Shown here: positions 18,514 to 24,001 of the stretch, piece by piece
Numbering within the stretch: the first letter of the stretch is position 1
Layout of the letters: each line of letters opens with the position of its first letter
Assembly (NCBI GenBank): GCA_031285845.1
Contig: JAITVK010000018.1
Location: 1 to 64,000, forward strand
Length of the DNA stretch: 64,000 nt
From: Propionibacteriaceae bacterium
GTDB lineage: Bacteria; Actinomycetota; Actinomycetes; Propionibacteriales; Propionibacteriaceae
Direction: 5' to 3'
Notes under the pieces: generated by a model
Seen by the model: only the letters and a program-made list of their open reading frames with translations
Databases searched by the model: none
What the model was told of the DNA's origin: nothing
Made by a program: the position numbers and the translations under genes

Positions 18514-18696
18514 GCAGGTCTGGTTGGGCCATCGCCTGGATCTGGCCGCTGTCAGTGGTCTGTGCCAGACTGTACGCGAGTCATCCGACTGGGCACGGCC
18601 GCTGGTGAGCGGCGTCGACCAATTCCGGGCACGCTTCGTCGGATCGGGTGGGCTTGGCCGTGCCGCGGCTCACGGTGTGATCAGTGAGGAGAAGTG

Positions 18697-19821
18697 ATGA
18701 GTGTGTGGGACGCCCTGGTTGGCCAGGGGCCGGTGGTCGACACGTTGCAGCGCGCGATCAGCGGTCAGGCTCATGCCATGACTCATGCCTGGCTGTTCAC
18801 TGGTCCGGCGGGATCGGGTCGATCGGTGGCGGCCTCGGCTTTCGCCGCCGGACTGCAATGCGCCCAGGGTGGTTGCGGGGTCTGTCAAGCCTGCTTGACG
18901 GCTCGGGCGGGCACACACCCCGATGTCACTGTCGTACGAACCGAGCAGCTCAGCATCGGGGTCGACGAGGTGCGTGACCTGGTGCGTCGAGCCGCGATGT
19001 CGCCGACCTTGGGGCGGTGGCAGACGCTCATCATCGAGGACGCTGATCGCATGACAGAGCGGGGGGCCGACGCGTTGTTGAAAGCGATCGAGGAGCCCGC
19101 GGATCGCACGGTGTGGATGCTCTGCGCGCCGACTGCCGACGACGTGGTGGTGACTGTGCGTTCCCGCAGCCGTCACGTCGGTTTGGTCACCCCGAGTCAG
19201 GCCGCGGTCGTCCAGTTGCTGACCGGCGAAGGGGTGGCGCCGGATCAGGCGGAGTTCGCCGCGCGGGTGTCCCAAGGACACATCGGGCGGGCCAGGGCGT
19301 TGGCGACGAAGCCCGAAGCAGCCCAGCGCCGCCGCGACATTCTCGCGCTTCCAGCCCAGTTGACCGGGTTGGGCCCGTGTTTGAAAGCCGCGGCTTGGGC
19401 GGTGACGACCGCGCAAGCCGAAGCCCAAGCGGCCACCGCGCCGTTGGACGCCGCCGAGCAAGACAAGCTGGCCGCGGTGCTGGCCACCTCCTCGGGCAAG
19501 GCGGCCCGAGGAATGGCCGGTCAGATGAAGGATCTGGAGGAGCAGCAGGCGTTGCGGCTCAAACGGTTCGTCCGCGACCGATTGGATTCGGTCCTCGGGG
19601 AGCTGACCTCGTACTATCGCGACGTCTTGGTGGTTCAGATGTCGGCCCAGGCTGGCCTGGTCAATCAGGATTGTGGTCCGTCGATTCGCGAGGTGGCCCA
19701 GACGACGACGGCCGAGGCGACCATCGGGCGAATCGACGCCATCGTGGAGTGTCGCCGAGCGATGATGAGCAATGTCGCGCCCCAGCTGGCCTTCGAAGCG
19801 CTGATGGTTTCTCTGGCTTGA
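18697..19821 (+). CDS. holB: DNA polymerase III subunit delta'
   Basis: A 374-aa clamp-loader subunit of the AAA+ superfamily. The P-loop is altered to GPAGSGRS (Arg for Lys), as is normal for the non-hydrolysing delta'. A zinc-binding cluster CAQGGCGVCQACLTA follows (about residues 49-63). The central stretch IIEDADRMTERGADALLKAI and EEPADRTVW is the family signature. ATG 18697 was preferred over GTG 18694 because GAGGAG lies at 18686-18691. Many actinobacteria have tmk directly upstream; it is absent here. Confidence 0.93.
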   Translation: MSVWDALVGQGPVVDTLQRAISGQAHAMTHAWLFTGPAGSGRSVAASAFAAGLQCAQGGCGVCQACLTARAGTHPDVTVVRTEQLSIGVDEVRDLVRRAAMSPTLGRWQTLIIEDADRMTERGADALLKAIEEPADRTVWMLCAPTADDVVVTVRSRSRHVGLVTPSQAAVVQLLTGEGVAPDQAEFAARVSQGHIGRARALATKPEAAQRRRDILALPAQLTGLGPCLKAAAWAVTTAQAEAQAATAPLDAAEQDKLAAVLATSSGKAARGMAGQMKDLEEQQALRLKRFVRDRLDSVLGELTSYYRDVLVVQMSAQAGLVNQDCGPSIREVAQTTTAEATIGRIDAIVECRRAMMSNVAPQLAFEALMVSLA

Positions 19822-20029
19822 CTGGTGGCTCGTTGGCGTGTCGTAGCCAAGACATACGTGGCGACATGGCACGATGTAGGTACTGAGGATTGTGTATACG
19901 ATCAAGATATCCACACGATCAGGGCGTCAAACCCACGCGTCGGCCATCGCTGATGTGGGCGCAGATCGTCCCGATCATGGGGTGAGACCCAGGTCACAAC
20001 CTTTTCATCCGGCGAGCGGAGGGACGACC

Positions 20030-21310
20030 ATGAGCGACGAGACATCGAGCCGCGGTTTTGACATCGGACTGAGTGGCGGTGACCAGCCAGAGGGCGTCAA
20101 GCCCGGCACCGACCATTTGGAGGAGCTGATCAGTCGCAGCTCAGGGTCGACCACCGAGCGGGTCGACCTTCAGACATCGCCGACCGAAGAGGAACCCGCT
20201 TTCTCAACGCCATCGAGCGATCCGGTCGATTCTGGCGCGTCCACTGGCGTCGAACCGGTTACGACGGATTCACCGGTTGAGGACGCCTCCGACATTGACG
20301 AATTTCGCAGCTTCGCACAGTCCCAGCCGCGGCCGACCCCTGCCGCGAACACGGAGGCGGTTCAGCCGCGCTGGCCGTTCGGCGGCGACGAATCGGTGAC
20401 CGTGGCCGCCACCGCGTCTCCTGAACCTGCGCCAGCGGACCTGGTCGACCAGGCCGTCGCCCCCGCGCCCGCGCCGCCAGTCCAGTCACCCCAGGTGATT
20501 GCGGCGACGCCGGATCCTGAACCCGAACCGGCCCCGGTCGACCGCGAATTCCCGCAAGGCACCGTCGACTTGACTGAAGAAGCCGCCTCGAAACCCGCTT
20601 TCGCTTTGGCTGGTCCGGGCGACAACCATGCACGTGCCCTTGACGACTCGTTGTACCGTCAGGGTCAAGAACCCGTCCCAGGAACCGTGGAGGTGGACCA
20701 ACCCGTGACACAACCCAACGCGACCGTCATCATGCCGATGGAGTCCCAGTTGACCGATCATCAGGCGGCCAGGGCGCGCGCGCTCGGCGTGGTCGACCGT
20801 GGAGCCGATGTCATCACCGCTCCCCAGCTGTTCCTCCCGCCGTCGATGTACAAGCGGTGGCCCAGTTTCGCCCTGTTCATGTTCCGCTTGGTCGTCGTGG
20901 CTATCCTCGGGATTCGTGCGACCCAGGAGTGGATGAACTTCTCCCATCTCAAAGAGCGCTGGTCCGCGTCGATTTTCCCCAGCCCTGAGATCTTCGCCAC
21001 CGGCCAGATCATCGTGGAGTACGCCATCGCGTTGATGTTGCTGCTCGGTCTGGCGTCGAGGGTCGCCGGCGTGGTGATGTTGGCGTTGTACGCGACAGTG
21101 TTGAGCTTCGTCGTGTGGGGCGCGACCAACCCGTTCAGCCGGGGTGTGGTCGGCTTCGACGGTCAGTACGAGGTCACGATGGCCGCGATCGGCCTGCTTT
21201 TCGCTGGGCTGGGTGGTGGTGGCGCCGCCGTCGACGCGGCGATTCATCGCGCGCGGCTCGAACGCAAGAACGCCAAGTTGGGCGTGACGGGGACCTCGGC
21301 CGAGTTCTGA
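20030..21310 (+). CDS. DoxX-family membrane protein with long acidic N-terminus
   Basis: A 426-aa protein. The first 270 residues are disordered, acidic and rich in Pro, Ala and Ser. The C-terminal 140 residues form a four-helix DoxX domain (MYKRWPSFALFMFRLVVVAI, then PEIFATGQIIVEYAIALMLL). DoxX-type proteins act in membrane redox or quinone-linked processes, but most are uncharacterised. ATG 20030 follows GGAGGG (20018-20023). The 210 nt upstream hold no gene. The unusual length of the disordered region suggests a cytoplasmic interaction arm. Confidence 0.83.
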   Translation: MSDETSSRGFDIGLSGGDQPEGVKPGTDHLEELISRSSGSTTERVDLQTSPTEEEPAFSTPSSDPVDSGASTGVEPVTTDSPVEDASDIDEFRSFAQSQPRPTPAANTEAVQPRWPFGGDESVTVAATASPEPAPADLVDQAVAPAPAPPVQSPQVIAATPDPEPEPAPVDREFPQGTVDLTEEAASKPAFALAGPGDNHARALDDSLYRQGQEPVPGTVEVDQPVTQPNATVIMPMESQLTDHQAARARALGVVDRGADVITAPQLFLPPSMYKRWPSFALFMFRLVVVAILGIRATQEWMNFSHLKERWSASIFPSPEIFATGQIIVEYAIALMLLLGLASRVAGVVMLALYATVLSFVVWGATNPFSRGVVGFDGQYEVTMAAIGLLFAGLGGGGAAVDAAIHRARLERKNAKLGVTGTSAEF

Positions 21311-21439: not shown

Positions 21440-23182
21440 GTGACCCAGTTCATTGAGCTCGACCCTGTGTTGCGGATCGGCACGAGAGGATCCGCCATCG
21501 CGTTGCGCCAGGCGAGTGGGGTGGCGCAGGCGTTGGTCCGCAAAGGATTGTCTTGTGGCTACACCATCGTGCCGGTCGGGCAACAAAGCGCTGGCGGCGA
21601 TCCGTCGGCGTTCGCCGGGGGATCGCTCCAAACCGCCGCGTTGAGAAGCGCCTTGGCGCAAGGGCGCTGTGATGTGGCGGTCCATTTCGCCAAAGACCTT
21701 CCCGTGGACATCGAGCCGGCCATCGGCGCGGTCATGGCCCGCCACGACCCCCGTGAGGCCCTGGTCAGCGCGGGCTGTCTCAGTTTGGCGGAGTTGCCCT
21801 ACGGCGCGCGAGTCGGGGTTCCCGAAGGGGTCCGTCGGCTGCAATTGCTCGGGCTGCGGGAGGATTTGACCATCGTCACAGTTCGGGGTTCGGTGTCTGA
21901 CCGGCTGGCGCTGATCGATGATGGACGCCTTGACGCGATCGTGCTGTCCCACGCGGTGGTCGTGGCCTCGGGGGTCGAAGACCGTATCGGCGAACTGTTC
22001 TCCCTGGCAGCGATGATCCCGACTGCGGCCCAGGGCATCACTGTGGTGGAGGTCGGCGCTGGCGTCGACCCGTCGGTGATGGACCTGCTACGGGCTGTCA
22101 CCGATCCGGACACCGCGCTGCGCTGGAGTGTGGAACGCGCCGTCCAGGTCGGACTGAGCCGACAGACCACCGACGCCGTGGGAGTGGTGTCAGATCTGGC
22201 CACCGTCGATCAGACCCGACGCCTGAGGGTTCGTGTCGTCGTCTGTGGGTCATCCGAAATGATTCGCGATGAGCAGTCTATCCAGCTGAGCGGCGACGCC
22301 GACCAGGATCACCGGGCCAGTTCGCAGTTGGCCGAGCGTCTGGTCAGTGAGGTCGGTCCACGCAGTCCCGCGCCGGCCCCGACTGTCCCGTCGCGCGGCC
22401 CAGGGTTGCGCGTGATGTACGACGCCAGCGCAGTGGGCGCGGGCGAGTACTTCGATCAGATCCAGGCGCGTGGCGCGACGGCGGTTCCGGTGGAGTTGAC
22501 GCAGACCCAGTACGCCGATCAGGAACAGTTGGACACGGTGTTCGAGCAGATGGCCCGAGCCGACTGTGTCGGGATCGCGTCGCCCTTGGTCGTCGAGGTT
22601 TTAGCCGAGCATGCGGAACTGCGTGGTGTGACGCTGGACAGCGTGCTCGAACCGGTCCGGGTCGGCGCGATCGGCTCGGCGACGGCCGCAGCCCTGGCCA
22701 GGCAGTACGTCAGCTTCGAGGTGGTTCCCGCCACTGCGGTCTCGATCACGACCTTGGAACCGGTCTGGCCGCGGTTCGACGGTGACGGACCCCGACCTGT
22801 CACAGTCATTCCCAGTTCGAGCAACTCATCACCGGCTCTGTCGCGGATGTTGGGCGATTTGGGTTGGCAGGTCGAGGCTCCGGTGGTCTACACCCGGGTC
22901 CCGGCTGAATGCGGTCCGCAGCAACAGCAGGCGATGGCCGACGGGTGGCCTGACGTGATTATCTTGTCGACCCGCAGTTCCGTCCAGGCGTTGGAGGCGC
23001 TCTACGGTCTGCCGCCGGATGGAGTCAAAGTCGTGGTCGTCGGCAAGTACGCGGTCCAGGACGCGATCGACCTGGGGATGCGGGTGGATTTGGCGCCGAT
23101 GACCTCCAGGGCTCCCGATGTCGTACGGCTGAGTTTGGCCGATCGTGCCGCCGATTCAGACACTGGCACTGTCGCGGTCTAG
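21440..23182 (+). CDS. HemC-HemD fusion with a degenerate hydroxymethylbilane synthase domain
   Basis: 580 aa. Residues 10-320 align with hydroxymethylbilane synthase: RIGTRGSAIALRQ, RCDVAVHFAKDLPV, VRRLQLL, VRGSVSDRLALIDDGRLDAI and PTAAQGI. Residues 325-570 resemble uroporphyrinogen-III synthase (IPSSSNSSPAL, VIILSTRSSVQAL). Substrate arginines and the catalytic Asp (KDLP) are kept. The cysteine that carries the dipyrromethane cofactor (E. coli C242, LEGGCQVPIG) is replaced: the aligned segment reads LSRQTTDAVG, with Thr243. The lysines of GGKGLFVKE are also missing. The HemC half is therefore probably not a normal enzyme, while HemD could still work. No other heme genes are nearby. Confidence 0.85.
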   Translation: MTQFIELDPVLRIGTRGSAIALRQASGVAQALVRKGLSCGYTIVPVGQQSAGGDPSAFAGGSLQTAALRSALAQGRCDVAVHFAKDLPVDIEPAIGAVMARHDPREALVSAGCLSLAELPYGARVGVPEGVRRLQLLGLREDLTIVTVRGSVSDRLALIDDGRLDAIVLSHAVVVASGVEDRIGELFSLAAMIPTAAQGITVVEVGAGVDPSVMDLLRAVTDPDTALRWSVERAVQVGLSRQTTDAVGVVSDLATVDQTRRLRVRVVVCGSSEMIRDEQSIQLSGDADQDHRASSQLAERLVSEVGPRSPAPAPTVPSRGPGLRVMYDASAVGAGEYFDQIQARGATAVPVELTQTQYADQEQLDTVFEQMARADCVGIASPLVVEVLAEHAELRGVTLDSVLEPVRVGAIGSATAAALARQYVSFEVVPATAVSITTLEPVWPRFDGDGPRPVTVIPSSSNSSPALSRMLGDLGWQVEAPVVYTRVPAECGPQQQQAMADGWPDVIILSTRSSVQALEALYGLPPDGVKVVVVGKYAVQDAIDLGMRVDLAPMTSRAPDVVRLSLADRAADSDTGTVAV

Positions 23183-23323: not shown

Positions 23324-24001
23324 TCAGTGAGTGCTGGCCTCGGACCGCTGGCGACGGGCTTTGACCCATTCGTAGACCATCGGCAGCAGTGAGATCACCA
23401 CGATGATGACGCAGGCCAACTCGAAGTTGGCTTTGATGGCGGGGATGCCGCCGAGGAAATACCCTGCAGTGGTCACGATCAGGACCCAAGCCAGACCGCC
23501 GATCGCAGTGTAGGTGATGAAGGTGCGGAAACTCATCTTGGAGATGCCGGCGATCAAGGTGACGAACGTTCTCACCAGGGGCACGAAGCGGGCCAAGATG
23601 AGCGCGCGGGAGCCGTACCTCTCGAAGAACACGTGGGTCTTGTCGATGTGCGTCGGGTTGAAGATTTTGCCCGCCAAACCGCTACGGGGCTTGAACAGCG
23701 GTGGACCGATCAGGCGACCGACCCAGTAGCCGGCGACGTTGCCTGCCACAGCGGCGATCATAAGGACGATGTAGACCACCGCGACTGTCGTCCATGTTCC
23801 GCCGTACGCGATGGTGCCCATGGCGGTGAACATGCCCACCGCGAACAGCAGGGAATCACCCGGCAGGACCGGAAAGATGGCGCATTCGATGAAAATGATC
23901 AGGGCCACGCCCCACAGCGCCCAGTTGCCCAGGGAAGTGATGATGACCTCCGGATCGAGCCAACTGGGAAGAAGCAAAGGTGTCAGGGCAAGCAAAGTCA
24001 C
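23324..24001 (-). CDS. DedA family (SNARE-associated) membrane protein
   Basis: A 225-aa integral membrane protein. DedA motifs are present: FIECAIFPVLPGDSLLFAVG (about residues 38-57), GNVAGYWVGRLIGPPLF (about 87-103) and ARFVPLVRTFVTLIAGISKM (about 137-156, containing the essential-type arginines). Family members are implicated in lipid-carrier flipping, including undecaprenyl phosphate, which would fit the nearby envelope genes. The start is GTG 24001 with TAATCT 6 nt upstream. Confidence 0.9.
   Translation of the reverse strand: MTLLALTPLLLPSWLDPEVIITSLGNWALWGVALIIFIECAIFPVLPGDSLLFAVGMFTAMGTIAYGGTWTTVAVVYIVLMIAAVAGNVAGYWVGRLIGPPLFKPRSGLAGKIFNPTHIDKTHVFFERYGSRALILARFVPLVRTFVTLIAGISKMSFRTFITYTAIGGLAWVLIVTTAGYFLGGIPAIKANFELACVIIVVISLLPMVYEWVKARRQRSEASTH

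Follow-up and report, generated by a model that had tools for sequence, protein, structure and literature searches.

The window (the whole 64,000-nucleotide stretch of DNA analyzed here) carries a 580-aa open reading frame that opens with GTG at 21440, closes with a stop codon ending at 23182, and is flanked upstream by a DoxX-domain gene and downstream by a convergent DedA gene (Table 1). The encoded protein matches two Pfam profiles, Porphobil_deam (residues 11–207, 128 bits) and HEM4 (residues 339–558, about 73–75 bits). The HEM4 score is the lowest among the relatives searched, the others scoring about 82–221 bits. At the sequence level, these matches confirmed the proposal of the initial annotation that 21440–23182 encodes a fusion of hydroxymethylbilane synthase (HMBS, HemC) and uroporphyrinogen-III synthase (UROS, HemD). 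The real start of the neighboring DoxX-domain gene probably lies downstream of the listed ORF start. Farther upstream, at 18694–19821, there is a DNA polymerase III delta-prime-like gene, recognized by homology to L032:8717-9844; its position ahead of doxX is conserved in most of the congeners examined. An ORF downstream of HemCD in relatives (L032:4527-5345, L044:11612-12667) was considered as a conserved partner and rejected, since the frame runs antisense to the DedA gene. Scans for promoters and terminators gave no useful information.

Table 1. Features of the cysteine-less HemCD locus, in window coordinates
Feature	Coordinates	Strand	Basis or remark
Type-1 cysteine-less HemCD ORF, 580 aa, GTG start	21440..23182	+	HemC-HemD-like
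Porphobil_deam (PF01379), HMBS domains 1-2	21470..22060	+	profile match and alignment
Thr243 codon (acc), site of the dipyrromethane-cofactor cysteine (E. coli C242)	22166..22168	+	alignment
HemC/HemD linker, low confidence, residues 313-320 with pLDDT <50; boundaries approximate	22376..22399	+	AlphaFold2 model
HEM4 (uroporphyrinogen-III synthase) domain; invariant Tyr484 and Ser381 retained	22454..23113	+	profile match, alignment
DoxX-domain protein, upstream neighbor	19892..21310	+	syntenic in G015, G011
DedA/VTT-domain protein, convergent downstream neighbor	23324..24001	-	adjoins HemCD in genus g7 too

HMBS has been studied extensively and, to our knowledge, has been treated as invariant in one respect: every working enzyme uses a single cysteine to assemble its own primer. 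A thioether joins the dipyrromethane cofactor to Cys242, and elongation takes place at the free end of the cofactor (PMC7242693, PMC8561815). The segment of E. coli HMBS from Arg232 to Cys242 aligns with the window protein without gaps (ERAVQVGLSRQT / ERAMNTRLEGGC), and Thr243 falls on Cys242, exactly as had been claimed. This placement was given both by phmmer, aligning the protein with E. coli HMBS, and by MAFFT alignments with 51 canonical HemCs. All 139 canonical HemCs that were checked have Cys242 (the 51 aligned with the window protein, 71 readable from named genomes, and 17 further copies, with one named HemC locus left out because its matched stretch was too short), indicating that its loss in the window protein is not a chance event. 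It was absent from the whole clade to which the window protein belongs and, more broadly, from all 31 paralogs of the three types described below (0/31). No replacement cysteine was seen in the cofactor loop of the window protein. The only cysteine common to all nine type-1 sequences corresponds to E. coli position 75, and this candidate for an alternative cofactor site was dropped, as 14 of the 51 canonical HemCs carry Cys there too. The earlier suggestion that a different cofactor site might be used therefore found no support, there being no conserved replacement cysteine.

Elsewhere in the HMBS half, R11, S13, H80, K83, D84, R132, R149, R155, Q198, and G199 are retained, and D46, S81, T127, S129, R131, N151, and R176 are changed. 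The catalytic Asp84 is present, as had been noted, and so is Lys83. The accompanying statement that the substrate arginines remain held only in part: four of the five arginines R11, R131, R132, R149, and R155 are kept, but R131 is replaced by Val, and R176 is lost. Serines preceding an RR pair had also been listed as lost. Here, T127-S128-S129 has indeed changed to V-P-E, although S128-S129 persists in relatives from genus g7, and the visible RR consists of R132 and the next residue, one residue late. The reported loss of loop lysines was mistaken for this lineage. K55 occurs in 1 of 50 non-E. coli canonical HemC rows and K59 in none (0/50), so neither is conserved in the canonical HemCs of Propionibacteriaceae, and their absence from the window protein is ordinary. 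In the HEM4 domain, the conserved UROS Tyr aligns with Y168 of the human enzyme.

An AlphaFold2 model of the window protein (21 sequences, pLDDT 86.6, pTM 0.55) matched E. coli HMBS (PDB entry 1pda) with E 4e-25 and a TM score of 0.84 by target. Against UROS structures, the better entries gave TM scores of about 0.65–0.73, with 0.73 by target for 3re1. Both folds are thus predicted to be kept. The active-site loop (residues 48–60) and the linker were modeled with low confidence, and the relative placement of the two halves in the model is unreliable.

The genome that contains the window (G000; 2.68 Mb, 98% complete) was searched for a second, intact hemC, and its sole PF01379 match was the window ORF itself. 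Searches for HemA (GlutR), HemB, HemE, and ferrochelatase came up empty in this genome and likewise in the two congeners with a similar HemCD (G011 and G015). As these genes went undetected, the window organism appears to make no porphobilinogen, so the window protein is not expected to be a working HMBS there. With no primer cysteine, substrate source, or downstream steps found, the sequence data rule out a working HMBS about as firmly as such data can. The loss of porphobilinogen polymerization that had been suggested for the HemC half is accordingly well supported on sequence grounds by the lack of a second hemC and of substrate genes in this genome and by the clade-wide loss of the cysteine. 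Cytochrome bd subunit I, a heme-using protein, was found in G000, G011, and G015; heme use where synthesis genes were undetected would imply heme uptake. The single TP_methylase match in G000 is suggested to be RsmI by its size and by its copy number and ubiquity.

Further tetrapyrrole genes were observed in related genomes. In five congeners (G004, G005, G007, G012, and G017), an ~550-aa HEM4 gene overlaps a TP_methylase match, forming a methyltransferase-HemD fusion, and despite its presence HemA, HemB, and HemC were undetected. G015 has four TP_methylase matches, three of them clustered as in the cobalamin pathway (C56:13894-18078; C135:721-1365); HemA, HemB, and methyltransferase-HemD were undetected in this genome, and salvage of a late precursor is possible. 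Ferrochelatase-family genes are kept in the HemB-less congeners G003, G004, G005, G007, G012, G013, and G017, where they could serve another chelation or salvage step. In G001, G010, G016, and G018 (loci L036, L039, L037, and L038, respectively), a canonical HemC match and a URO-D (HemE) match share one 665–716-aa frame, possibly a HemC-HemE fusion.

Relatives of the window protein were collected by a profile search over 199 Propionibacteriaceae genomes. The window protein belongs to a monophyletic clade (100/99 support), here called type 1, of nine sequences with HemC-HemD architecture and without the cysteine: three from the window's genus (G000, G011, and G015) and six from genus g7 (G024, G127, G128, G129, G131, and G132). 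Position 242 is occupied by Thr in seven, Ser in one, and His in one (G011, which has an insertion), and all three residues occur within the trio from the window's genus. R11 (where the row covers it), H80, K83, D84, R132, R149, R155, Q198, and G199 are kept in all nine. Four of the g7 genomes (G128, G129, G131, and G132) also encode a canonical HemC with Cys242, which makes the cysteine-less protein of these genomes a paralog. In G024 (97% complete), the cysteine-less copy is accompanied by a methyltransferase-HemD gene, and HemA, HemB, ferrochelatase, and a further HemC went undetected. The adjacency of HemCD and DedA is common to the window and genus g7, pointing to a shared ancestry of the locus. 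The relatives in the window's genus include the MAGs TD116_bin13 and TD116_bin66; those in g7 are MAGs from fen, groundwater, and reactor. Second HemC copies in G039, G051, and G054, which belong to another family, were considered as further cysteine-less paralogs and rejected as ordinary, because they keep Cys242.

Genus g15 contributes two further sets of cysteine-less HemCD paralogs, 17 with Tyr (type 2) and 5 with Asp/Glu (type 3) at position 242, and a Cys-bearing copy was present in the same genome wherever both were fetched. Type 2 stands in the heme operon, directly after HemCD-HemB-HemL, in several genomes (with a gap to HemL of ~36 bp in L173), and in G069, G087, and G102 it follows a run of Aldedh, cytidylyltransferase-like, RsfS, and histidine-phosphatase genes. 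Types 2 and 3 cluster together (100/97) beside the canonical HemCDs of g15. The tree does not favor one origin for all three types, but the AU test does not reject it (p = 0.068).

Selection was measured as pairwise dN/dS by the Nei-Gojobori method. The ratios were 0.10–0.15 for type 1 in g7, 0.16–0.19 for type 2, and 0.07 for type 3, compared with 0.18–0.39 for canonical partners, values that uncertain starts in some canonical ORFs may inflate. Beyond the window's genus, purifying selection on the paralogs (0.07–0.19) is therefore at least as strong as that on their canonical partners, and in g7 it acts about equally on the HemC half and the HemD half. The low ratios in g7 and g15 indicate that the paralogs are functional there, and a selected function of the family in these relatives is well supported. 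In the window's genus, constraint on the gene is weaker and evolution faster than in g7; the window copy gave 0.29 against G015 and 0.40 against G011, both at saturated dS.

We favor, with a probability of roughly 0.5, the reading that the window gene encodes an HMBS/UROS pseudoenzyme that does not polymerize yet retains the ability to bind a carboxylated pyrrole or tetrapyrrole. The protein would descend from a HemC-HemD fusion, and its sequence shows that the cysteine and several cofactor contacts have been lost. Having no primer site, the HMBS half would be unable to extend a pyrrole chain, and the arginine-lined cleft, together with the UROS half, may bind a carboxylated pyrrole or porphyrin noncovalently, the protein acting in binding, regulation, or chaperoning. 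The retention of carboxylate-binding arginines and the heme-operon location point to such roles in tetrapyrrole binding, regulation, or chaperoning. In relatives with a heme pathway, the protein might modulate or partner the real HemCD or pass on an intermediate, and in the window organism its ligand could be imported heme or porphyrin. Against this reading stand the fast evolution in the window's genus (a branch length of 0.76 for the window row, besides the ratios of 0.29–0.40), the variation among Thr, Ser, and His at position 242 within the trio, and the dispensability of the gene in that genus. The last is indicated by six congeners (G001, G002, G003, G005, G006, and G012), whose doxX-dedA interval yielded no HemCD-like sequence; in G001, ~68 bp separate the matched ends of the two genes.

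The main rival for the window organism, which we consider less likely, is that the gene is a relic HemCD paralog whose job ended with the loss of the pathway and that is slowly decaying; its frame would still be open by chance or because some weak constraint lingers, and the window's genus would be in the course of losing it. The absence of the upstream and downstream pathway genes searched for would agree with such a relic, as would the six congeners with an empty doxX-dedA interval, the long branches, and the dN/dS ratios higher than those in g7. Decay is harder to reconcile with full-length frames in two diverged species and a frame running to the contig's edge in a third, at 43–50% identity. 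The first and second codon positions of the window copy also change less than the third (40/32/61% against G015 and 45/36/61% against G011). Moreover, identity within the trio is concentrated in the HMBS active site, at 14 of 21 positions hand-picked from knowledge of HMBS compared with 83 of 262 others (Fisher p = 0.0017), and the charged pocket residues tested are identical in 7 of 7 cases.

It is improbable that the HemD half alone works as a UROS enzyme, with the HemC half as a structural platform. The invariant Tyr and Ser of UROS are present in type 1, the model predicts a UROS fold, and in g7 the gene lies a few kb from a methyltransferase-HemD gene, but the window genome has no hydroxymethylbilane source, and the relatives already obtain HemD from canonical HemCD or methyltransferase-HemD. 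Such an enzyme would not need a conserved pocket in its HemC half, nor is it what the equal constraint on both halves in g7 would suggest. Least probable is an active pyrrole-condensing enzyme with a free or oxygen-linked primer in place of the cysteine-linked dipyrromethane, which the retained Asp84, Lys83, R149, and R155 and the hydroxyl residue (Thr or Ser) at position 242 in 8 of 9 type-1 rows would allow, but which is opposed by the lack of a porphobilinogen source and of a downstream step to use the product, by the insertion and His at the site in G011, and by the loss of T127, R131, and N151.

Returning to the pseudoenzyme reading, the selected cysteine-less copies, several of them in heme operons next to the intact enzyme and some outlasting the pathway, suggest a second, non-biosynthetic use of the HMBS/UROS scaffold, possibly in sensing or handling tetrapyrroles. 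A bolder version, which we offer as speculation and consider rather unlikely in full, is that losing the cofactor cysteine gave rise, once or more within Propionibacteriaceae, to a family of HMBS-UROS pseudoenzymes that serves as a heme- or porphyrin-binding sensor or chaperone and outlasts the pathway where heme is imported. For annotation, hemC and hemD calls in such genomes should not be equated with heme synthesis.

HemC-HemD fusions are already known (SEED genomes; PMC4921024, Table 3), and canonical ones are common in Propionibacteriaceae. A search of open-access papers turned up no account of HemCD paralogs that are conserved yet lack the cysteine. The canonical fusions have the same domain order as the window protein and a similar length, but those checked keep Cys242, unlike the type-1 clade that coexists with them in some genomes. 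E. coli HMBS (1pda/1ah5) shares with the window protein its fold, domain order, Asp84/Lys83, and R11/R132/R149/R155, whereas the window protein has no cofactor cysteine, differs at the seven changed positions given above, and stands in a genome in which no substrate appears to be made. With UROS, it shares the fold and the invariant Tyr and Ser, and it differs in having the lowest HEM4 score and in being fused to a non-canonical HemC. Types 2 and 3 of genus g15 resemble type 1 in their HemCD architecture, the lost cysteine, the changed N151, and strong purifying selection, but have Tyr or Asp/Glu at position 242 and have lost R149 in most copies; type 3 additionally lacks K83/D84.
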